A stretch of DNA of 64,000 nucleotides, from assembly GCA_020725465.1 (NCBI GenBank), contig DYEY01000056.1, forward strand, positions 1-64,000. The letters run 5' to 3'. This document shows positions 5,644 to 43,008 of this stretch, piece by piece (the first letter of the stretch is position 1; each line of letters begins with the position of its first letter). The position numbers were made by a program, and so were the translations under genes. This DNA comes from Dethiobacter sp. Lineage in GTDB: Bacteria; Bacillota; Dethiobacteria; Dethiobacterales; Dethiobacteraceae. Under the pieces are notes generated by a model. The model worked only from the letters and a program-made list of their open reading frames with translations, had not been told where the DNA came from and searched no databases.

Positions 5644-6376
5644 AGACGGCATACTGACCGGGGAGCTGGAGGAGCAACTGCTGATGGACCACCGTGCCGG
5701 CGTGAGAAACCTGGCGCAGCGCCTGCAAAACAGGCGGCGGGCCGAGAGCGGGGAGCTTTCCCGCCTGGATAGAATGTTGGTTTATGAACGGGAGGCCTGG
5801 CGGCAGGGCTTTATCCGGATTGCCGGTGTGGACGAGGCAGGCAGGGGCCCCCTGGCCGGGCCGGTGGTGGCCGCCGCCGTAATATTGCCAAAAAATACAT
5901 ACATCAGGGGACTTAATGATTCCAAACTGCTCCCGCCCCGCAAACGGGAAACCTTATACGCGGAAATTACAGCCAGAGCGCTGGCCTGGTCCGTGGGCGT
6001 AGGCGAGGTGGCCGAGATAGACGCAATTAACATCCATAATGCGGGGAAACTGGCCATGCTGCGTGCCCTCTCCTCGCTGTCGCAGCAGCCCGATTATATC
6101 ATAACAGACGCGCTGAAGCTGGACGGCCCCGATTGCCCGCTGCTGCCGCTAACCGGCGGCGACAGGTTATCGCTGTCGGTGGCAGCCGCCTCGGTTGTGG
6201 CCAAGGTAACCCGCGACAGGTGGATGACTGAGATGGACAAGGTCTTCCCCGGTTACGGTTTTGCTCAGAATAAGGGCTACCCTACCCGGGAACACAGGGA
6301 GGCCATCAGAAAATCAGGCCCCTGCCCCATACACCGGCGTTCTTTCCTGCTTGTGCCGGAGGCGTGTTATGAGTAG
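5597..6376 (+). CDS. rnhB: Ribonuclease HII
   Basis: 259 residues. It removes ribonucleotides from DNA-RNA hybrids and misincorporated ribonucleotides. The catalytic region begins GVDEAGRGPLAGPVVAAAV (D and E of the DEDD site), with NDSKLLPPRKRE and the later YIITDALKLDG supplying further acidic residues, and KGYPTREHREAI near the end. An N-terminal extension of about 75 residues matches Firmicutes RNase HII. ATG 5597 follows a GGGGGA ribosome-binding site inside rbgA. Confidence 0.96.
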   Translation: MDIKKMTVAEIARCLKDGILTGELEEQLLMDHRAGVRNLAQRLQNRRRAESGELSRLDRMLVYEREAWRQGFIRIAGVDEAGRGPLAGPVVAAAVILPKNTYIRGLNDSKLLPPRKRETLYAEITARALAWSVGVGEVAEIDAINIHNAGKLAMLRALSSLSQQPDYIITDALKLDGPDCPLLPLTGGDRLSLSVAAASVVAKVTRDRWMTEMDKVFPGYGFAQNKGYPTREHREAIRKSGPCPIHRRSFLLVPEACYE

Positions 6377-6707
6377 CAAAGGAAAAGCCGGGGAGGACAG
6401 GGCCGCTGAGTTTATTGCCGGTCTGGGGTACCGGATAATTGACCGCAACTGGCGCTGTGCCCGGGGCGAGATAGACATCGTGGCCCGGGAAGGCGCCACG
6501 CTGATATTTGTTGAGGTAAAAGCGCGTCGCAGCCAAAAATTCGGCTTCCCGGCGGAAGCGGTTAATCCGCGCAAGCAGGAGCGCCTCCGCCTGCTGGCGC
6601 TCCATTATATAAGCGCCTCTGGCCAGGGCGCCCCGGACTACCGCTTTGACGTGGCAGCAGTCAACCTGCACGATGGCAGTGTGGAACTAATCAGGGGTGC
6701 TTTTTGA
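6369..6707 (+). CDS. yraN: YraN/UPF0102 family putative endonuclease
   Basis: 112 residues. UPF0102 proteins have a Holliday-junction-resolvase-like nuclease fold and are routinely next to rnhB. The catalytic-type residues are visible in GEIDIVAREGATLIFVEVKAR (D...ExK, PD-(D/E)xK type). ATG 6369 overlaps the last codons of rnhB, implying coupled translation. The true cellular role is not settled for this family. Confidence 0.9.
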   Translation: MSSKGKAGEDRAAEFIAGLGYRIIDRNWRCARGEIDIVAREGATLIFVEVKARRSQKFGFPAEAVNPRKQERLRLLALHYISASGQGAPDYRFDVAAVNLHDGSVELIRGAF

Positions 6708-6722
6708 TAAATGAAAAGATAA

Positions 6723-6752
6723 AATATCCGGGCACTGCCCGGATATTTTTTG
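6723..6752 (+). terminator. Intrinsic terminator after yraN
   Basis: AATATCCGGGC (6723-6733) pairs perfectly with GCCCGGATATT (6737-6747) around ACT, followed by T residues. It ends the housekeeping run. Confidence 0.9.
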
Positions 6753-6838
6753 CAAACAGGAAATAAAGGATATATTTGCCAACCAGCTTATAGTAATATA
6801 TATGTAAGAGCAAAGCTGCATAAAGGAGGGGCGGGGCA

Positions 6839-7855
6839 ATGTTCCGCATCCGCAGGGCCAAAGCAAAGACGCTGGCGGCAGAAGGATGGACGGACAATAT
6901 AATCAGATTTCACAGGGAGAACCTGGGCCCGGCGCAACAGGCGGGCCTGACTTTTGACGTGGAAACCGGAAAAAAGAATTGCGGGGAAGGGCAGGAGACC
7001 CTGATACTGGCCTTCGACCGGGAGAATAACCTGGCGGGATACCTGGAATACTGCCCGCGTGATGGCGGGGAAGTATACATAACATCCGTGCTGGTGGCCA
7101 AAAAATACCGCAGGAGCACGCTATTTGCGCTGCTTGTGCAGGAAGCGGCCGAGGACCTGTCCAGGCCGGACTTTGCCACGATTTCCTGCCATGTGCCACG
7201 GAACAATGGGGCTGCACTGGAGATTTGCCGGAAACTGGGCTTTACTCTTTCCGGAGTTAAAGGAAACGAACGGTTGCTTTTGGCCTCTGTGCCTGTAAAG
7301 GAGCTTAACGGGGGTTTGCCCGCCAGGCTGCGTAAAAGAAGGCTGACACTGGTGGAGCCCAGTGCAGGATTAAAAGAAGCGTTTTTAGCCATGGCAGCGG
7401 ACTTTGCCTTGTCCGGAGAAGATGCTTACAGTGGGTTTCTCCGGGGTCAAAGCTGTTTTGAAGGGGACCTTTCCGCAGTGAGGGCTCATGCTTGGGGCGA
7501 ATGTCTCCCCGGTGGCTATATGCCTGCAAAAGTATTCTGGCTGACCAGGGGAGAGAGGAGTGTCATCGGCGTGTCATACCTGCGGCACCGGCTGACTCCC
7601 TCCCTGGTACGGGAAGGGGGCCATATCGGTTACCACGTGGCGCCTTCCAAAAGAAACAAGGGCTACGGGACCGTCCTGCTCGCCCTTACCCTGGATAAGG
7701 CCTGGCAGGCAGGCTTAAAAAGGGTGATGATTACCTGCGACCGTAACAACCTGCCGTCTGCGCGCGTTATTGAAAAAAACGGCGGAGTTCTGCTGCGGGA
7801 GGACAAAAAGGTCAGGGGCAGAGATATCCTGCGCTACTGGATCGGGCTGGGGTAA
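6839..7855 (+). CDS. Protein with two GNAT acetyltransferase domains
   Basis: 338 residues. The first GNAT-like half (about 1-150) has YITSVLVAKKYRRSTLFALL in the acetyl-CoA binding position, with a degenerate Q/RxxGxG loop. The second half (about 160-338) has VGYHVAPSKRNKGYGTVLL-like features (HIGYHVAPSKRNKGYGTVLL) and DRNNLPSARVIEKNGG, which resemble COG3981-type acetyltransferases. Only the second domain looks catalytically complete by motif. Substrate unknown. A GGAGGGG ribosome-binding site precedes ATG 6839, and a strong terminator separates it from yraN. Confidence 0.85.
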   Translation: MFRIRRAKAKTLAAEGWTDNIIRFHRENLGPAQQAGLTFDVETGKKNCGEGQETLILAFDRENNLAGYLEYCPRDGGEVYITSVLVAKKYRRSTLFALLVQEAAEDLSRPDFATISCHVPRNNGAALEICRKLGFTLSGVKGNERLLLASVPVKELNGGLPARLRKRRLTLVEPSAGLKEAFLAMAADFALSGEDAYSGFLRGQSCFEGDLSAVRAHAWGECLPGGYMPAKVFWLTRGERSVIGVSYLRHRLTPSLVREGGHIGYHVAPSKRNKGYGTVLLALTLDKAWQAGLKRVMITCDRNNLPSARVIEKNGGVLLREDKKVRGRDILRYWIGLG

Positions 7856-25594: not shown

Positions 25595-25685
25595 CGGATG
25601 GGCTAAAACACTGCTGGCTGCCGTATTGACGCGAACAGATGTTTGGTATATGATGTAGTAAATGGCAGGGGAGGTAGGTTCAGGT

Positions 25686-26723
25686 ATGCTGGCCAGTGTC
25701 ACCGGTTGCACCATCACCGGTATAGAGGGCAGGATGGTTGAGGTGGAAGTATATTTATCATCCCAGCTGCCTAGTTTTGATATTGTGGGGTTGCCTGACG
25801 CTGCAGTCCGGGAGGCCAAGGACCGGGTGCGAGCCGCTATCAAAAACAGCCGGCTCGATTTTCCCAAGCAGCGGATTATTGTCAACCTGGCGCCGGCGGA
25901 CCTGAAGAAAGAAGGGCCGCAGTTGGACCTGGCTCTGGCGCTCGGGGTACTGGCAGCTGCCCGCCAGGCGGAGGTGCCGGCGCCGCTGGCGGTACTTGGA
26001 GAACTGGCTTTGGACGGCACTCTGCGGCCGGTGAGAGGGGTGCTGCCCATGGTTCTGGCAGCCCGCGACTCGGGCTTTAAAAGGGTGCTGCTTCCCAGGG
26101 AAAATGCCCGGGAAGCCACCCTGGTGGCTGGTATGGATATTGCCGGCGCCGGTTCACTGGGTGACGCCCTGGCCATTATCCGCGGCGAGCTTAAGCCGGA
26201 AATACCGCCGCCGGCCAAGAGTTTCTCAGCCGCCCCGGACTGTGACTTTGCCCGGGTTAAGGGACAGGAAGGCGCCAAGCGGGCTCTGGAGGTGGCGGCG
26301 GCCGGAGGCCATAATTTGCTGATGACCGGACCCCCGGGCTCGGGCAAGACGATGCTGGCCCGTTGTGTCCCCTCTATCCTGCCTGAACTAAGCGAAGAGG
26401 AAAGCCTGGAGACCACCAAGATTTACAGCGCCGCTGGCTTCCTGAAAGAATCGGCCGGCCTGATTACCAGGCGCCCTTTCCGCCACCCTCATCATACAGT
26501 TTCGTTGGCAGCTCTTTGCGGCGGCGGCCGGGTCCCGCGGCCGGGAGAAGTGTCGCTGGCCCACAACGGCGTTCTCTTCCTGGACGAGCTGCCCGAATTC
26601 CGGCGCGAGACGCTGGAGGTGCTGCGCCAACCGCTGGAAGAAGGGGAAGTAACTGTAGCCAGGCTGCAGGCATCGTATACCTATCCGTCCCGTTTCATGC
26701 TACTGGCTTCCATGAACCCCTGA
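25686..26723 (+). pseudogene. comM: ComM/YifB Mg-chelatase-like AAA+ ATPase, truncated by prophage
   Basis: 345 residues of about 510 remain. ATG 25686 gives the family start [15 protein letters not shown], ten bases after [36 protein letters not shown] and the Walker A GPPGSGKT (about 215-222) are intact, and [11 protein letters not shown] is the Walker B. The frame ends at SMNP followed by a stop, where intact homologues read AMNPCPCGY. The break coincides with the integrase-proximal end of a prophage. ComM is a helicase aiding natural transformation in Gram-negatives; its role in Firmicutes is less clear. The 3' part should lie at the far prophage end, outside this window. Confidence 0.93.
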
Positions 26724-28314
26724 CCGTGCGGGTAACATCCTTGGAAAAAGAATACCGAGCGGTAACCACTGCTAACGGGCGTCCATTATCAGAGGGTTTT
26801 GTTTCCACAATAATTTCTTTTACGAGGGCACGCACAATTTCCCGGCGCACTTCAAACGGCGGGGCGGAATCCAGTTTGGCTTTTAGCGCATGCAGTAGTT
26901 CCTCCGCTGTATCGAACTGGCCGACCGCCGTTTCCTCGGATTTAATCTGCTTTTCAATCTCTTTAACACGCTGCTCCAAAGACGCTTTCTCCAGGGTAAT
27001 TTTTTGCATCTGTTGCTCTACATCTAAACTGCTAATAATCTTTTTTCTGTAGAGGTCGAGAATGCTCTGTTTCTCGGCCTCTTTTTCATTTATGGCCAAG
27101 ATGATTTTTTGCTTTTCATCCTCCAGTGCTGCTTTTTGAGATTTCCTCACGTTCATCGTAGCTGCCAACTCCAGCAGGGCATCACCTGGGTTGTTAATAA
27201 AATCTACACAAGCAGACCACACCAAATCCTCAACCCAATCTTGAGGTATATTTTTTGCGGTGCATTTTCCGTCCAAAGGGCCACGGTAGGCCGTTTTTCC
27301 GCCGCAGAGGTAATATGCTTTAGGCTTCCCCTCCGGACCGCTGTAGGCTGTGCCGTGATAAGTTAGACCACACGTACCGCATTTAATCATACCCCGCAAA
27401 AGATATTTTCTTTTGGCGTTCTTCATGGCTTCTAACTGGTTGTCTTTAAGAGCCTCCTGGGCCTTTTGCCATACTTCCTCGCTGACGATTGCAGGGACTT
27501 CACGGGGGATGAGCTCTCTCTTTTTATTTGTCCTCTTCCCATAATGGTGTATACCCTTATAAGTGGTGTTTACCAGCATGTTTCTGATGCGGCCGGGCCT
27601 CCAGATTCCTGCTGTGTTAACCTTACGTTTCCCCTTTTTTACCTGCCTGCCGTCTTTAACATAAGCAGTGGGAATACCAAGGGCATTAAGGTAGTCGGCG
27701 GCTTTTATGGTGGAATAACCCTGCTCGGCCACAAGGCGGTAAATAAGGCGTACAACGTCCGCCTCGGTCATCTCCAAGCCAGGAAGTTCTTCTTCGTTAA
27801 TTTCCAGGTATCCCTCTTCATTTACCCGATACCCATAGGGCACGATGCCGCCAAGCCACTTTCCGGCTCGGGCAGCCCGGTTTGCACCGTACCACATTCG
27901 CTCCAGCACTGTTTCCCGTTCCAGGTCTGCAACTCCGGCTAAAACAGTTAACAGGAACCGGCCATTGGGGTCGCCGGTATCAAAAGGCTCCGTCATACTG
28001 CGAATTTTTACGCCGTTTTGTTCCAGTTCGTAAACTGCGTTAAGTATAATACGGGCAGAGCGGCCTAGGCGGTCGAGGCGGTAGATAAGCAGCAGGTCGA
28101 ACTTATTCTCTTTGGCATCGTTTAATAGACGAAGACCCTCTGGCCTCTGCTCCAATGGGACAGTCCCAGTTACGCCATCGTCTTTGTACCAATCAATTAT
28201 ATCCAACTGGTGCAGGTCGCAATATTTTTCCCCAAACTCCAGCTGATTTTCAATTGTTTTACGTTCTGCCTGGTCCTCTGACGAGACCCGGGCGTAAACT
28301 GCTACCCTTGCCAT
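26695..28314 (-). CDS. int: Large serine recombinase (phage integrase)
   Basis: 539 residues. The N-terminal resolvase domain carries the catalytic serine in YARVSSEDQ, with [23 protein letters not shown] and further Arg residues. A recombinase domain ([10 protein letters not shown] ... [18 protein letters not shown]) precedes a zinc ribbon ([13 protein letters not shown], then YLCGG and GKCTAKN). A long coiled coil (about 385-475) controls synapsis, and a basic tail ends the protein. The last roughly nine codons are read from the junction with comM, so the 3' end is partly host-derived. It performs attP x attB integration; the directionality factor was not identified. Confidence 0.96.
26706..26736. 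other. attL, host-prophage junction within comM
   Basis: Sequence up to ATGAACCCCTG (26711-26721) reads as comM Met-Asn-Pro-(Cys). The next bases, ACCGTGCGGGTA, still resemble the expected codons for Pro-Cys-Gly-Tyr apart from one base, so host-like similarity spans the crossover. This is expected if attP resembles attB. The exact core cannot be fixed without attR. Confidence 0.7.
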
Positions 28315-28318
28315 TTAA

Positions 28319-28759
28319 TCACCCCGCCTTTTTGGCATCTGGAAGATTTAGCCTAAATTGAATCATCTCATCGGTAACGTCAAAGTGCTCTGCCAGTTCC
28401 CATGGCTGGGAAATACCTTTTTTAACGGCAGCAAAAAGGCGTTCCTTTGGTATAAGCTGCTGTGCCGCCCATTTTAAAGCTCGATGTTCAGACCTGCTTA
28501 TCTTCAACCGTTCCCGATAATGGAAAAAAGTTTGGCCTGGGATGGTGTAAAGCAGGGAAGTAAAGTGGTGCCCCAGTTCTTCCGCAAATACACATTTGAA
28601 ATATGCTGTCGAAGCGGTTTTTAAAGACTCTGCCAAGCCGATTATCGGGGGAATGCTGGGAATAAGCAAATATACGGCTTCCAATGGGGGCTGAAAGTCC
28701 CACCACTCCACCAAGACACCTTCTTTTTCGGCCAGGTTAAAAAGTTGTTCAACACGCAT
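28319..28759 (-). CDS. ImmA/IrrE-like protein of the lysogeny operon
   Basis: 146 residues. It resembles short phage ImmA/IrrE family proteins. The HExxH-type site appears as AEELGHHFTSLLYT (about 58-71), where the first His is replaced by Glu, a variant common in phage members; catalytic competence is therefore uncertain. In other phages ImmA peptidases cleave the CI-type repressor to induce the prophage. ATG 28759 lies behind GGAGGTTACAA. It sits between the methylase and the integrase, on the same strand as the repressor. Confidence 0.75.
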   Translation of the reverse strand: MRVEQLFNLAEKEGVLVEWWDFQPPLEAVYLLIPSIPPIIGLAESLKTASTAYFKCVFAEELGHHFTSLLYTIPGQTFFHYRERLKISRSEHRALKWAAQQLIPKERLFAAVKKGISQPWELAEHFDVTDEMIQFRLNLPDAKKAG

Positions 28760-28813
28760 TTGTAACCTCCTATATAAAAACCGAGAAATGTGTCGATTTC
28801 CCCCAAAGAGACA

Positions 28814-28847
28814 TTTAACCTGCCACCACAAAAGGTAGCAGGTTAAA
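28814..28847. repeat. Inverted repeat upstream of immA-like gene
   Basis: TTTAACCTGC (28814-28823) and GCAGGTTAAA (28838-28847) are perfect reverse complements. After a single mismatch the pairing extends by ACC/GGT, leaving a 6-base loop. Another CAGGTTAAA lies near 28877. With no U-tract it may be an operator or an mRNA hairpin between the methylase and the immA-like gene. Confidence 0.65.
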
Positions 28848-28880
28848 GTGACCATTCAGAGATACAGGATGCACAACAGG

Positions 28881-29762
28881 TTAAACAGAAGTATTTGAAA
28901 TTATTAGCTCATATCTTATGGAATTGTGTGTGCCCTTCATAGGGATTTTTTTATAATTAAAACCGTACTTTTCTGCAAGGTTAATAATCGCCTCGTCATA
29001 ATCGTATGTGAGCATGAATTTCCCTTTAACATTTTTAAGCATACGAGAGAGTCGGTCGTGGTCTACTTCGGAATAACGGTATAAGCGCTTACCTGCTTTT
29101 TTCTTTGATGCTGTGTAGGGAGGGTCAACGAAAAAGCAGGTTTTTTCATTGTTCCCACATTCCTGGATGTAATCAAAAGCATCTCCTTCAAAGAAATCCA
29201 ACCTGTCTTTAATTGAGACAATCGTATTAATGCGCTTTGCTAGTGTATCAGGATACCAGCGGGAAAGGATGCCCTTCCCGTTTTCACCGTACTTTAAAAG
29301 GCCGGAACCGTTTGCCATTACACCCCCGTGGCAAACTCTATTCTTTAATATCGTTTTGAAGGCCATCTCCTCACAGCTGTCAGCAGGAGCGTTAATAATT
29401 TTCCTTGCTGCTTCCACGGTCAGGTTAATGGACTGAATCTGGTTAACCAGCCACTCCCAATCACCGTACAGGATGGTTTTCCAAACCGAGGCTACGTCTT
29501 CGTCTTTCTCAACCATAACGCATTTATCCACCAGCCCGTGATATGCGGTGGACAAGCTTATTATTCCGCCACCGGCAAAAGGTTCAACTAGATATTCAGG
29601 TTTATAGGAAAGTGATTGCAGCCACCTTAAAAAGCCAGGAACAAGCCAAGTCTTTCCGCCCGGATACCTAAAAGGGCTTAACTGTTTTACCTTTGCTACA
29701 TTCACGATTTCCGACTGCTCGTCCCCAAAAACGGTAAGCTGCTGCATGTTAAGTTCAGGCAT
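28881..29762 (-). CDS. D12-class DNA adenine-N6 methyltransferase
   Basis: 293 residues. Dam-like order of motifs: FRYPGGK (31-37) and PFAGGG (61-66) for AdoMet binding, then the catalytic FFVDPPY (211-217). The intervening target-recognition region differs from Dam. The ATG directly abuts the stop codon of the NotI-like endonuclease gene, so the two are translationally coupled and most likely form a type II restriction-modification pair. An adenine methylase implies a recognition site containing A, unlike the GC-only site of NotI itself. Confidence 0.92.
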   Translation of the reverse strand: MPELNMQQLTVFGDEQSEIVNVAKVKQLSPFRYPGGKTWLVPGFLRWLQSLSYKPEYLVEPFAGGGIISLSTAYHGLVDKCVMVEKDEDVASVWKTILYGDWEWLVNQIQSINLTVEAARKIINAPADSCEEMAFKTILKNRVCHGGVMANGSGLLKYGENGKGILSRWYPDTLAKRINTIVSIKDRLDFFEGDAFDYIQECGNNEKTCFFVDPPYTASKKKAGKRLYRYSEVDHDRLSRMLKNVKGKFMLTYDYDEAIINLAEKYGFNYKKIPMKGTHNSIRYELIISNTSV

Positions 29763-30662
29763 TTAAGAGTCCTCCCCGTTTTTTAAAAAGCGAAACACAT
29801 CGGCCGGGTTTTCAGTCTCCGGCGGATTATCATTCTCCAATTTCTCATCCAATTTCTTCTGTAAAAGCTTTATAAAGTTTTCCAGGCTCCCGGGAATGGG
29901 AGTTGATATTTTCTGTAGGGCTTCTCCAAACTGCGTATAGACAACCTTTCTTTTTGCCAGAGAATAGGTTTGCTCTGTCTCGTTGTAATCAAGGCCGTAA
30001 ATAAACCAGGCCACATTCGACTCGTCTTTATGTACTTCAGGCAATTCCGGCAGGGTGTTATAGAACGATTCATGCAAGACAACCCCTATCTTTTTGTTCC
30101 AGGCATTTAGAATTCCCCCCTTAAACATTAACTGGGGGATAAGGCGTTTCCTCGATGAGGAAAGGTAGTCTGCCTTAGGATAGTTGTAGCCGGTGCTCCA
30201 GGTAAAATCAGGAGGCATGGTTTCCATATATTTTTCAAAAGGCCGCCTAACGTTACCGCTGATATATACTGCCTGAACTTCCACGGCTCCAAAATCCAGA
30301 AGATTTCCTTCTACATCATAAGATACCAGAACCAGGTCTATGTTGCCTGCGCTTTTCCCGTTGGCATCATTTAGCCTTATTTCAGAAAGGGATGTCCACG
30401 ACACCCCCGGTTCAAAAAAATACTCTGCAGTGTCGGAAGCGATTAACCAGTCCTGGCGAAAGCGAACCGGACAGGTGATGGCCAGATTATCACCATTAAA
30501 GATGGAGCACACTCCCAGAGGGTTCTGTGCTTTGTCTTTGGTGCAATTAGCAGAAATGTTGTGATATGGGCAAAGGCGTGATTTTCTAAAGTGTGTGGCT
30601 TTTTTGCCTGCGTTAGTGATGGGAAAACCGAATACTTCACATAATGGGTTTTCGTTGCTCAT
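29763..30662 (-). CDS. NotI-like type II restriction endonuclease
   Basis: 299 residues from ATG 30662 (AAGGAG upstream). The N-terminal part matches the NotI family pattern: NPLCEVFGFP, then RLCPYHNISANCTKDKAQNP and GVCSIF, with cysteines at 8, 31, 40, 52 and 64. NotI has a four-Cys iron-binding fold in this region. The nuclease core has GNIDLVLV (D109) and AVEVQAVY (E128, Q130), a PD-(D/E)xK-like site with Gln in the Lys position. It lies one base after the repressor stop and touches the methylase start. The specificity cannot be read from the sequence. Confidence 0.8.
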   Translation of the reverse strand: MSNENPLCEVFGFPITNAGKKATHFRKSRLCPYHNISANCTKDKAQNPLGVCSIFNGDNLAITCPVRFRQDWLIASDTAEYFFEPGVSWTSLSEIRLNDANGKSAGNIDLVLVSYDVEGNLLDFGAVEVQAVYISGNVRRPFEKYMETMPPDFTWSTGYNYPKADYLSSSRKRLIPQLMFKGGILNAWNKKIGVVLHESFYNTLPELPEVHKDESNVAWFIYGLDYNETEQTYSLAKRKVVYTQFGEALQKISTPIPGSLENFIKLLQKKLDEKLENDNPPETENPADVFRFLKNGEDS

Positions 30663-30663
30663 A

Positions 30664-31014
30664 TCACTGCTCCTTCTTTCTGTATTTGCGGAGAATGAAT
30701 TCTTTGAATTCCTCAATTGACTTCCTGGCCTCCTCCGGCAGTTCAGACATCGGGTCGTCTGTTCGGTGTGTAGAGATATTCTCAGGGCCCTCTTTTACAT
30801 GTCCCCGTCTTTGCTCTGTCCTCCCAAGCAAATAGTCAACTGATACATCAAAAAGATCGGCCATTCCTTGCAGGGTGTCCCACTCAGGGAATCTTGTGCC
30901 TTGCTCATAGTGGGTTATAGCAACTCTTGATAGGTTTAATTTTTCGGCAAGCTCTCGCTGGAGAAGACCCTTTTCTTCACGGAGCATTTTTAACCGTTCC
31001 GGGAAACCTGGCAT
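30664..31014 (-). CDS. CI-like XRE repressor
   Basis: 116 residues. An N-terminal XRE helix-turn-helix is clear (ERLKMLREEKGLLQRELAEK, then LNLSRVAITHYEQGTRFPEWDT and LADLF-like MADLFDVSVDYLLGR). The C-terminal part is short and charged and lacks a LexA-type protease domain, so induction may depend on the ImmA-like protein. ATG 31014 has GGGAG upstream; longer starts do not. It heads the leftward operon from promoter 31049-31077. Confidence 0.9.
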   Translation of the reverse strand: MPGFPERLKMLREEKGLLQRELAEKLNLSRVAITHYEQGTRFPEWDTLQGMADLFDVSVDYLLGRTEQRRGHVKEGPENISTHRTDDPMSELPEEARKSIEEFKEFILRKYRKKEQ

Positions 31015-31048: not shown

Positions 31049-31077
31049 ATTATAACCTTTAAGGTAACTAACTGCAA
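31049..31077 (-). promoter_or_regulatory. Leftward lysogeny promoter (PRM-like)
   Basis: On the minus strand TTGCAG (31072-31077) and a perfect TATAAT (31049-31054) are separated by 17 bp, driving the repressor gene. The -35 box lies inside the first operator-like site (31064-31078), allowing autoregulation. Confidence 0.75.
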
Positions 31078-31174
31078 CATTAAGTAACAACAGGGAACTA
31101 TTTTTTAAAATCATGCATTAAAACCCTTGACAGGTTACGAACTGTAACTTAAAATAAGAGTAACAGCAGGTGAC
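31064..31174. promoter_or_regulatory. Four 15-bp operator-like sites
   Basis: GTAACTAACTGCAAC (31064-31078), GTAACAACAGGGAAC (31084-31098), GTTACGAACTGTAAC (31134-31148) and GTAACAGCAGGTGAC (31160-31174) share the pattern GTwAC-5-bases-rAC or close to it. The third is a perfect GTTAC/GTAAC palindrome within the spacer of the rightward promoter. The first covers the -35 of the leftward promoter. The arrangement is that of repressor/Cro operators in a lysis-lysogeny switch. Confidence 0.7.
31127..31155 (+). promoter_or_regulatory. Rightward early promoter (PR-like)
   Basis: A perfect TTGACA (31127-31132) and TAAAAT (31150-31155) are separated by 17 bp. The palindromic operator-like site at 31134-31148 fills the spacer, so bound repressor would block RNA polymerase. 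Confidence 0.8.
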
Positions 31175-31202: not shown

Positions 31203-31466
31203 TTGAAAAAGCGTACCAAACTTGCTGAAATTCGCATTTCCAAAGGCTTGCTGCAAAAAGACGTTGCCAGAGCTGCTGGCGTAACGAGAGTTTTCTATAC
31301 GCAAATAGAGAACGGCTCAAGGCTACCATCTTTAAAGCCAGCAAAAGCAATGGCAGATGCCCTCGGTATATCGCTAGATGACTTTTTTGTTGCCCTCGGG
31401 GTAACAAAACGGAACTCCAGTATTCAGGGAAGCCAGGCAACCACCACCGAGGCCGTAAACCAATAA
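31203..31466 (+). CDS. Cro-like XRE regulator
   Basis: 87 residues. A single XRE domain: RTKLAEIRISKGLLQKDVAR, then AAGVTRVFYTQIENGSRLPS and MADALGISLDDFF. It is the first gene of the rightward early operon, directly opposite the CI-like repressor, so a Cro role is likely. TTG 31203 is chosen because AAGGAGG lies at the right distance; an in-frame GTG at 31170 lies before that site. Confidence 0.85.
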   Translation: MKKRTKLAEIRISKGLLQKDVARAAGVTRVFYTQIENGSRLPSLKPAKAMADALGISLDDFFVALGVTKRNSSIQGSQATTTEAVNQ

Positions 31467-39846: not shown

Positions 39847-40046
39847 AAATAAAATACCCAGCCACGATGTTTGTCAAGTAAAGTTCAAAAATAAAATAAA
39901 ATGGAAAGTATGATTTGTTTCGTGGCAGAAAGTTGGCAGGAATGAGAGTACTCTCTGTGATATTGTGGTACAAAGGGGCTGTCCGCAGAGGGTGGTTATT
40001 TGTTACAGGTTTCATTAATATTTCACAAAACAAGGGGTCATTTCAG
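39847..40046. promoter_or_regulatory. Probable late control region
   Basis: This AT-rich 200-bp gap between the late regulator and the late genes holds GCCACGA (39861-39867) and its exact complement TCGTGGC (39920-39926), 52 bp apart. TTGTCA at 39871 could be a -35 element, but the -10 is poor, as expected for an activator-dependent promoter. No convincing gene found. Confidence 0.45.
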
Positions 40047-41078
40047 TTGCGAAGGTTAAAAATTTTTGATGCTTTGCCTGCCTATTTTGGGGGCAAAAGG
40101 AAACTGGTAAAAGAGATATTCAAGCTGGTTCCGCCAGCCAGCAATGCTCCGGTTTTCGCAGACGCTTTTATGGGGGGTGGGTCAGTTTCTCTCCTGGCGA
40201 AGGCGATGGGGTACAAAGTGCTGGCTAACGACATTGCAGAACGGTCATGCATCGTGGGGAAGGCACTGATTGAAAACAACCGGGTAAAAATTGCAGGAGA
40301 AGATATTAACAGGCTTTTTGTGGAAAGCTCAAACGACCGCTTTATACAGGACAAGTTCTCCCCACAGGTGTTTTTAAGCAAACATGCAGCATTTCTGGAT
40401 AATGCTATGGCCGTTGTTCGGGCCATGGAAGACGGGCCCAAAAAACACTTAAGCCTCCTGCTCCTGATTAAAATGGTATTTTACCTGCGGCCCTACTCCA
40501 AGTTCTCCAGCCCAAATGCTTTTAATATCCCGATGGAACAACGGCAGATTGAAAGCATTAAAAATAGGACATACCATGCCAGCATCAAGGCGGCTTTGCG
40601 GCCAATACCTGATATACTGAAAGACTTGGTGGCGGCTATTAATGCCGGAATAATAGACAACGCCCAGGAGAACAGGGTTTTCAGGATGGATGTCCGCGAG
40701 TTTTTGCGCCAAATCAAAGCAGATGTGGTGTACTTTGACCCCCCATATGCCGGAACGCTGGCCTATGAGGAAGAATACAACGTTTTAGACCAAATCCTTA
40801 CCCGGCAAATAACTATAGAAAAAAGCGAGTTTTCCCGTAAAGACGGGATTATTTTTTTAGCAGAAGTATTCCAGTCGGCCAGGCACATCCCTGTATGGAT
40901 AATCTCTATGGGCAATGCAGGCGGCGCAAATAACTGCTTTGATGAACTGATAGAAATCATCGGCCAGTACAAAGATGTCCAGGCGAAAAGGATTAAATAC
41001 AAACATATGACCGGGGCCGCCAGCGAAGAACATAAGGCTAAAAATGAAGAATACCTGATACTGGGGAGACCAAAATAA
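40047..41078 (+). CDS. D12-class DNA adenine methyltransferase (first of a tandem pair)
   Basis: 343 residues from TTG 40047. Motifs: LPAYFGGKRK, DAFMGGGSVSLLAKAMGYKV, NDIAERS and catalytic VYFDPPYAG. The start is chosen by alignment with the next gene (both have a short lead before the YFGGK motif) and the nearby AAGGGG. It differs strongly from the methylase in the lysogeny operon. It may protect phage DNA against host restriction. A stand-alone methylase at the start of the late region is common. Confidence 0.85.
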   Translation: MRRLKIFDALPAYFGGKRKLVKEIFKLVPPASNAPVFADAFMGGGSVSLLAKAMGYKVLANDIAERSCIVGKALIENNRVKIAGEDINRLFVESSNDRFIQDKFSPQVFLSKHAAFLDNAMAVVRAMEDGPKKHLSLLLLIKMVFYLRPYSKFSSPNAFNIPMEQRQIESIKNRTYHASIKAALRPIPDILKDLVAAINAGIIDNAQENRVFRMDVREFLRQIKADVVYFDPPYAGTLAYEEEYNVLDQILTRQITIEKSEFSRKDGIIFLAEVFQSARHIPVWIISMGNAGGANNCFDELIEIIGQYKDVQAKRIKYKHMTGAASEEHKAKNEEYLILGRPK

Positions 41079-42089
41079 ATGAAATTTCTGCAAGCCCTCC
41101 CTCCTTATTTCGGAGGGAAACAAGCATTGCTCAAAACCATATTCGGTCTTTTGCCCGGGGCACAGCAATGCCCAACTCTTGCAGATGCGTTCCTTGGCGG
41201 CGGGAGCATCTCTTTATATGCAAAGGCAATGGGATACCAGATCTTCTGTAACGATTTGGCAGAGCGATCTGCGGTTGTTGGCAGGAGTCTTATTGAAAAC
41301 AGCCGGGTCAAGGCAAACAAACAAGACGTTGGGGAACTTATAAAGCCGAACGGTTTTACACTATGCCAAAAAGACCCGGTGAATAAGTTCTTTACTCCAG
41401 ATGACGCCCTGCTGATTGATACCGTCCGGGGAAATTTAGAACAAAAAGAACCGGGATTTAAAAAAGACCTCTCTACCCTCGCTCTCATAAATTTTGTCTT
41501 ACGCAGCAGGCATCATGGGGACTTTGGTGTGCAGTGGACATACGATGCGCTGCGGGCGAAGGAGAACACATACCTCCCCTTAGGGCATATGCGCAGCGCA
41601 AGAATTTTTCTTAAGTCGCCCATTGATAGGTTTGTGAAAGAGATAGAAAAGATTAACCGGGCAGTGTTTTCTAACGGCGAAGAAAATGTTTTTACGCAAG
41701 AAGACGTGCTGGAATTCCTGGAGCACACCAGGGCAGATATTGCCTACTTTGACCCGCCGTATTACGGCTCTGCTCCTTACGAGGAAAGGTATAAGGTGCT
41801 GGACTGGATATTACATGGTGAAATCAAGGAACCGGCAGTAAGCGAGTTTAACAAAGACCAGGCTTACAGCCTTATCGAAGACATGCTGGAACGGGCTGAG
41901 TGGGCAAAGATATGGGTCATCAGCTACGGTGGGCCAAAGGTTGATAGGCAGGAGTTCCTTAACCTGGTTAAAAAGCACCGGAAGACGGCGAGGGAAATAC
42001 TACTCAATTATAAATACCGCTTTGGAAATCAAAAGGCGGACAGCGAAAACAGAGACACTGAAATCCTTATTTTTGCCGAAAGGGGTTAA
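41079..42089 (+). CDS. D12-class DNA adenine methyltransferase (second of the pair)
   Basis: 336 residues, starting at the base after the upstream stop. Motifs parallel its neighbour: LPPYFGGKQ, DAFLGGGSISLYAKAMGYQI, NDLAERSAVVGRSLIENSRV and AYFDPPYYGS. The N-terminal and catalytic regions are clearly homologous to the first gene, while the middle (target-recognition) section diverges. This suggests duplication, followed by a change of specificity or formation of a heteromer. Confidence 0.85.
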   Translation: MKFLQALPPYFGGKQALLKTIFGLLPGAQQCPTLADAFLGGGSISLYAKAMGYQIFCNDLAERSAVVGRSLIENSRVKANKQDVGELIKPNGFTLCQKDPVNKFFTPDDALLIDTVRGNLEQKEPGFKKDLSTLALINFVLRSRHHGDFGVQWTYDALRAKENTYLPLGHMRSARIFLKSPIDRFVKEIEKINRAVFSNGEENVFTQEDVLEFLEHTRADIAYFDPPYYGSAPYEERYKVLDWILHGEIKEPAVSEFNKDQAYSLIEDMLERAEWAKIWVISYGGPKVDRQEFLNLVKKHRKTAREILLNYKYRFGNQKADSENRDTEILIFAERG

Positions 42090-42093
42090 GCAT

Positions 42094-43008
42094 ATGGCAA
42101 ATACGCCGCAGCAGGAGATAAGGGTAACCAGGCTGCCAATTGATAAGGTCAGGGCAAACAACTGGAATCCCAACAAAGTAGATGAAAAAACGATGGCTAA
42201 ACTAAAGGCCGATATCCGGCGCAAGGGATGTATCCAGCCCATCATTGTCAGAGCAACCAGACCTGAAGAGTGGGAAATCGTTGATGGTTTCCACCGCTGG
42301 AGCATCCTTCAGGAGTTAGGCTATGCAGAAGTACCAGCCATTATCGTGGACATGGACGATACAGAAGCGAAGCTCAAGACCCTGCAGTTAAACTATATGC
42401 GGGGAGCGGCAGTACCTATCCGCCTGGCGAACCTCATCCACGATTTGAATAAAACGTTGACACTGGAAGACCTGGAAGCCGCCCTGCCGTACGAAAAAAC
42501 CGAGTTAAAAGACAGCCTATCACTGCTTAAACTTCCAGCGGATATCGATAAGGTGGTTGAAGAAAAAGCCGAAAAGGAACGGCAGGCAGAGCCCATCTTC
42601 ATTTCTGCCACCATATACAAAGACAAGGAAAAAAGCCTGCATGATTTTGTGGAACAGGCACTGCTGGAAAGTGAGGCTACCTTTGCGGAGATTAAAATAA
42701 AAGTTGAATGCCCTGCCAACGACTTTAACCTGGTTATAAAAGCCATGCAGAACCTTTCAAAGTTGGACAGGGGTAAGGATGACCTTACTGGGGAGAACGC
42801 CCCTGTTGTGACACGTTTTGCCCTGTTCCCCGAACAACTGCGGGTGATAGACCGGGCACTGCAGCATATTGCCAAAACCCAGGGATACACAAAGAACCCA
42901 AGGGGTATGGCCCTGGAAATGATGGCAGCAGACTACCTGGCAGGCGCAAGTTTGGAGGATGTCCAACATGAACAAGGAGAAAAAAAAGAAGCTCGGCTCA
43001 ACTCCTGA
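42094..43008 (+). CDS. ParB-like nuclease-domain protein
   Basis: 304 residues. The N-terminal ParB/Sulfiredoxin-type domain is clear: LPIDKVRANNWNPN, LKADIRRKGCIQPIIVRA and the IVDGFHRWSILQELGYAEVP box (ParB box with GxHR). The middle and C-terminal parts are unrecognised. Phage proteins of this type often lie next to methylases and the terminase and may be nucleases or regulators rather than partition proteins. ATG 42094 follows AAGGGG. Confidence 0.88.
   Translation: MANTPQQEIRVTRLPIDKVRANNWNPNKVDEKTMAKLKADIRRKGCIQPIIVRATRPEEWEIVDGFHRWSILQELGYAEVPAIIVDMDDTEAKLKTLQLNYMRGAAVPIRLANLIHDLNKTLTLEDLEAALPYEKTELKDSLSLLKLPADIDKVVEEKAEKERQAEPIFISATIYKDKEKSLHDFVEQALLESEATFAEIKIKVECPANDFNLVIKAMQNLSKLDRGKDDLTGENAPVVTRFALFPEQLRVIDRALQHIAKTQGYTKNPRGMALEMMAADYLAGASLEDVQHEQGEKKEARLNS

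Follow-up and report, generated by a model that had tools for sequence, protein, structure and literature searches.

A NotI-family endonuclease and a Dam-type methylase behind the repressor gene of a Dethiobacter prophage: a probable coupling of immunity to restriction

The immunity region of a prophage in comM

The window analysed (the first 64,000 nucleotides of contig DYEY01000056.1 of Dethiobacter sp.) carries a prophage of ~40 kb, with genes for terminase, portal, tape-measure and tail proteins. It splits comM, the 5' part of which lies at 25662-26723 and the C-terminal domain at contig position 67125-67412, so that the right end of the prophage is beyond the window. When the two comM junctions were compared for an attachment core, none of 12 bases or more was shared in the region compared; for serine integrases, lack of a long shared core is usual. 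A second serine integrase in the same genome (G000:C65:363-1853; 38% identical) probably marks another prophage or element.

The features of the immunity region are listed in Table 1. The endonuclease gene lies on the strand of the repressor gene and directly behind it in the lysogeny module, with 1 base between the repressor stop codon and the endonuclease ATG; the methylase gene follows with no intervening base. A reading made earlier from the sequence alone (the sequence-only reading) had described a string of five genes from repressor to integrase. Its coordinates and the junctions of repressor, endonuclease and methylase were correct, but the ImmA-like and integrase genes are isolated from these by a spacer of 121 bp with a hairpin, so that the five genes do not make up one tight string. 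The hairpin (28847-28814; 14-bp stem, 6-nt loop; folding z=-5.0) is present in a single copy in this genome and is missing in cassette-less relatives, where the ImmA-like gene has a gap of 2 bp before it. It is a candidate terminator or processing site, and may end the transcript, which would leave the integrase outside the unit.

Table 1. Features of the immunity region, in window coordinates.
Feature	Position	Strand	Evidence
Large serine integrase	26695..28314	-	Resolvase/Recombinase/Zn-ribbon domains (Pfam); phrog_95 2e-121; prophage end within comM
ImmA-like M78 metallopeptidase (AEELGHH motif)	28319..28759	-	phrog_87 metallo-protease 6e-17; Pfam M78 slightly under cut-off
Spacer with hairpin, 121 bp, methylase to ImmA-like gene	28760..28880	-	
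D12/Dam-type N6-adenine DNA methyltransferase (predicted), 293 aa, DPPY 213-216	28881..29762	-	PF02086, PADLOC, fold
NotI-family type II restriction endonuclease (predicted), 299 aa	29763..30662	-	PF12183, fold, alignments
Phage repressor (HTH_3/Xre, 116 aa; RstR/ImmR-like)	30664..31014	-	Pfam HTH_31 6e-13, HTH_3 2e-12
Repressor (lysogeny) promoter, probable: TTGCAG-17-TATAAT	31049..31077	-	sequence
Lytic promoter: TTGACA-17-TAAAAT	31127..31155	+	
Palindromic candidate operator GTTACGAACTGTAAC within lytic promoter	31134-31148		
Cro-like HTH protein, divergent	31203..31466	+	HTH_3 1.5e-15

The repressor promoter faces the lytic promoter. On the minus strand, no other sigma70-like promoter site was found between the repressor promoter and the endonuclease gene; a weak promoter-like match (9/12) occurs within the methylase gene, at 29587-29560. 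This promoter layout agrees with the earlier proposal that restriction stands under the immunity promoter, and we infer that repressor, endonuclease and methylase would be transcribed together.

Five viral contigs (L052-L056, some of them near-copies of each other) encode integrases 79-81% identical to that of the prophage and carry no cassette. In them the repressor gene is followed after 2 bp by the ImmA-like gene, then by a gene encoding ~199 aa and by the integrase gene. The repressor of the prophage shares 50-58% identity with its counterparts in these relatives, with a near-identical C-terminus, and the ImmA-like protein is 54-57% identical to theirs; up to the junction, the repressor C-terminus and the body of the ImmA-like protein align with the relatives. 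Since the cassette-less phages have the two genes 2 bp apart, comparison of the sequences places the insertion of the cassette at the junction of these two genes in the comM prophage. The G+C content of the cassette is 43.7%, as against 49.8 +/- 2.4 for the prophage. The embedding of the pair in a prophage repressor operon, which the sequence-only reading had asserted, is thus borne out by the cassette-less relatives, the comM junction and the gene layout. The ~199-aa gene, conserved in all five relatives (the L052 copy has no Pfam match), is missing from this prophage.

The endonuclease and its methylase

A Pfam profile search assigned the endonuclease to PF12183 with 195.4 bits (cut-off 22; E=1.3e-57). 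The best PDB matches of its predicted fold were NotI (3c25/3bvq; E 1e-7 to 2e-5, prob 1.0, TM about 0.5), and as all other entries failed a threshold of 0.001, solved NotI is the only significant fold match. The model has a pLDDT of 65, the core being better predicted and the N-terminal cysteine/metal-binding part of low confidence. A PDB sequence search with the endonuclease, as a single sequence or as a profile, gave no match, and NotI was reached by fold comparison only; identity to R.NotI (PDB 3BVQ, 3C25) is ~12% in the structural alignment. An alignment of 15 close family members shows no variation at residues C31, C40, C52, C64, D109, E128 and Q130; across ten diverse members these residues are likewise invariant, save for C40, which is replaced in one sequence. 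We take the four cysteines and D109...E128xQ130 to be the NotI metal-site and active-site residues. Both alignments confirm the NotI-type cysteines and D...ExQ site recognized in the earlier reading, and the profile and structure comparisons agree on membership of the NotI family. We conclude from sequence and model that this protein is a NotI-family type II restriction endonuclease, with a predicted cutting activity.

The methylase matches Pfam D12 (PF02086) with 41 bits (cut-off 22; 1.8e-10), has conserved EPFAGGG (SAM-binding) and DPPY motifs, and resembles Mcbe1, Dam and DpnM in fold. Because class, motifs and fold agree, the enzyme is predicted to modify N6-adenine, and the adenine-methylase partner claimed by the sequence-only reading is genuine. 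Against the Dam subfamily model TIGR00571 it scores 42 bits, the curated cut-off being 115; judged by its sequence, it is like Dam but not a Dam orthologue. It also matches the PADLOC model PD-Lambda-5_B (7e-41). Identity with PD-Lambda-5 was rejected, as component A is absent and the endonuclease matches only the REase_II model of PADLOC and no PD-Lambda-5_A model.

The endonuclease thus shares its fold and Pfam family with R.NotI but differs in its partner. As a Dam-type methylase would mark adenine, the recognition site is expected to contain adenine and therefore to differ from GCGGCCGC, which supports the earlier inference of a specificity unlike that of NotI. A search for the site through palindrome avoidance yielded GCCGGC, which lacks adenine and shows no avoidance in the host flank, and so is no pointer to the cassette methylase. 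This palindrome occurs 0 times in the prophage (26725-63160), against 16.5 predicted from the prophage's own 4- and 5-mers, and 29 times in the host flank (1-25600), against 29.7 predicted. Its absence suggests that the phage formerly met an enzyme of such specificity in other hosts.

Relatives of the cassette in bacteria, plasmids and phages

A scan of species genomes revealed 19 endonuclease relatives of 52-59% identity, in hosts that include Calidithermus, Nitrospira, Verrucomicrobia, Planctomycetaceae and Desulfobulbaceae. In a set of 29 loci from many phyla, made up of the window, the species-genome relatives and loci found later, a cassette-type methylase gene lies directly behind the endonuclease gene in 27. 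The two exceptions are L020, which stops at a contig end, and L019, where the 0.6 kb that remain show no methylase. Divergence of the endonuclease tracks that of the methylase (Mantel r=0.94, p=2e-4). The family is rare: among 398 genomes sampled from the window's phylum, 8 have a NotI-family match of any kind. These comparisons indicate that endonuclease and methylase form a conserved mobile cassette, already established across many bacteria.

In all 27 pairs the endonuclease comes first. The sequence-only reading had seen in this order a sign of translational or Fe-dependent control. The order is family-wide and is the norm in hosts without an adjoining phage repressor, so that special control is unsupported; moreover, the Shine-Dalgarno sequence of the endonuclease is strong (GAAGGAG), both enzymes have apparently strong ribosome-binding sites, and RNA structure around the endonuclease start is ordinary (z=-0.2).

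Three loci (L021, L022 and L023) have a broken endonuclease gene beside an open methylase gene, the pattern that an active and costly endonuclease would be expected to produce, and in one genome (G274) a lone broken methylase is left. The broken copies could in part be assembly errors.

Other NotI-family enzymes are paired with cytosine methylases, and on plasmid pEST4011, which like the cassette here has endonuclease then methylase, the methylase is 47% identical and its endonuclease just 27%. From these two observations it follows that partners of NotI-family enzymes diverge or change. Plasmid pTbrSNM4-1c of Thermus brockianus has the same two-gene order (endonuclease 53%, methylase 49% identical). 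Unlike the pair in the phage immunity region, the pairs of both plasmids lie beside partition or replication genes, and one plasmid copy adjoins a ParA-family gene. Public plasmid records label such pairs 'NotI family restriction endonuclease' and 'DNA adenine methylase'. By eye, the cassette lies between feoA- and feoB-like genes in a Desulfobulbaceae genome (L017, 7.3-12 kb), while in another genome (L011, 5.7-11.5 kb) its neighbours on either side resemble nuoF and nuoG. The cassette may be a habitual invader of operons.

A search of an isolated-phage collection with P0001 gave one weak match (27%) and no close relatives, and a scan of viral contigs with single P0001 and P0004 gave no matches. 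On four viral contigs (L092, L093, L094 and L099), counted as one lineage by their matching hits, a repressor of the CI/LexA type (HTH and S24 peptidase) precedes a co-oriented NotI-family endonuclease (PF12183, 1.5e-46) by ~59 bp, an arrangement located at 5833-7772 (-) on L092. The methylase of this group is 49% identical and lies on the strand opposite the endonuclease (convergent). L060 has a tyrosine integrase and then the cassette, L062 and L088 carry it elsewhere in the phage, and L003-L017, like L062 and L088, have it outside any immunity region. Placement behind a repressor is recurrent in these loci but not universal. As other carriers lie outside immunity regions, coupling is not inherent to the cassette.

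Probable control of restriction by the immunity switch

Defence genes in repressor operons are already known. Tha of staphylococcal phage 80alpha is transcribed with the repressor from the cI promoter in lysogeny and reduced on induction; unlike the pair described here it is not a restriction-modification system but a HEPN RNase, which is switched on by tail proteins and has a separate antisense inhibitor (PMC11087260). The gp43/gp44 genes of Gordonia phage CarolAnn provide heterotypic defence and are co-expressed with the repressor (gene 45); they are not described there as a type II pair (PMC6426596). Phage-borne restriction-modification is known as well: Sau42I is the type II system of temperate Staphylococcus aureus phage 42, a BcgI-like type IIS enzyme for which the cited part of the source describes no repressor-operon placement (PMC6532042, citing Dempsey 2005). 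Pairs of a NotI-family endonuclease and an adenine methylase are likewise familiar from plasmid annotation. What this locus adds is a complete type II pair directly behind the repressor, together with an outline of the family to which the pair belongs.

The simplest account is that heterotypic exclusion has been added to repressor immunity in lysogeny, as for Tha and CarolAnn. We consider it likely that the cassette, read from the repressor promoter, couples immunity to a predicted restriction activity, with a predicted specificity and a predicted exclusion of incoming phages. This interpretation retains from the sequence-only reading the NotI family, the adenine-methylase partner, the repressor-operon embedding and the non-NotI site, and drops the special control read into gene order. 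From what is established, namely gene order, protein families, folds, conservation of the pair and insertion point, we infer the following mechanism. A mobile type II cassette, NotI-family endonuclease then Dam-type methylase, entered between the repressor and ImmA-like genes and, having no evident promoter of its own, would be read from the repressor promoter. In the lysogen, the methylase would mark the DNA of both host and prophage at a site that contains adenine. DNA entering from unrelated phages and plasmids would lack the mark and be cut by the endonuclease, and related phages would be blocked by the repressor, so that homotypic immunity and heterotypic restriction would go on and off together. 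ImmA-type inactivation of the repressor would flip the switch and silence the cassette together with the repressor. The resident virus would then probably defend its host against other viruses solely while dormant.

Type II restriction-modification pairs in general act as addiction modules, and selfish maintenance is a real rival, to which we give a low but appreciable probability: endonuclease persisting while methylation dilutes would kill cells that lose the prophage, and phage exclusion would be secondary. The presence of the cassette in other phages and on a plasmid, beside a ParA-family gene, is consistent with this account, whereas an integrated prophage is already stable; sequence cannot separate addiction from defence. 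A recently acquired cassette might also be inert cargo in this prophage, with little expression or no activity. Frequent decay, as in the broken endonucleases and the lone broken methylase above, points that way, but here neither frame is truncated, every invariant residue is present and the ribosome-binding sites are strong, and we regard inertness as improbable. C (controller) genes often precede endonuclease genes, and the HTH protein has weak matches to PADLOC control-protein models, but a controller rather than a phage repressor is very improbable and was rejected, because the cassette-less phages have the same gene in the same place, 50-58% identical and divergent from a Cro-like gene, and by eye none of the bacterial relatives listed has an HTH gene directly next to the cassette.

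If restriction is coupled to immunity as we favour, the locus offers a testable case in which a phage immunity switch governs a whole type II pair. Relatives free of the cassette serve as natural controls, and the second viral lineage allows comparison. The NotI-fold endonuclease with a Dam-type methylase is a widespread combination whose site should differ from that of NotI; as a possible new restriction enzyme, it is of practical interest.

More tentatively, temperate phages might repeatedly recruit NotI-family endonucleases to be transcribed with the repressor, and the immunity switch would then gate restriction too; this generalization is possible rather than probable. The L092 group would then be an independent instance. 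The prophage would also have to escape self-cutting at induction, when the supply of methylase stops with the repressor, perhaps through prior methylation or through two adenine methylases of the lytic region. These D12 enzymes are encoded in tandem at 39915-42089 (+), among the rightward, lytic genes of the prophage, and are followed by a ParB-domain gene (41929-43008). Their similarity to the cassette methylase is short and weak, and they could protect phage DNA during lytic growth.
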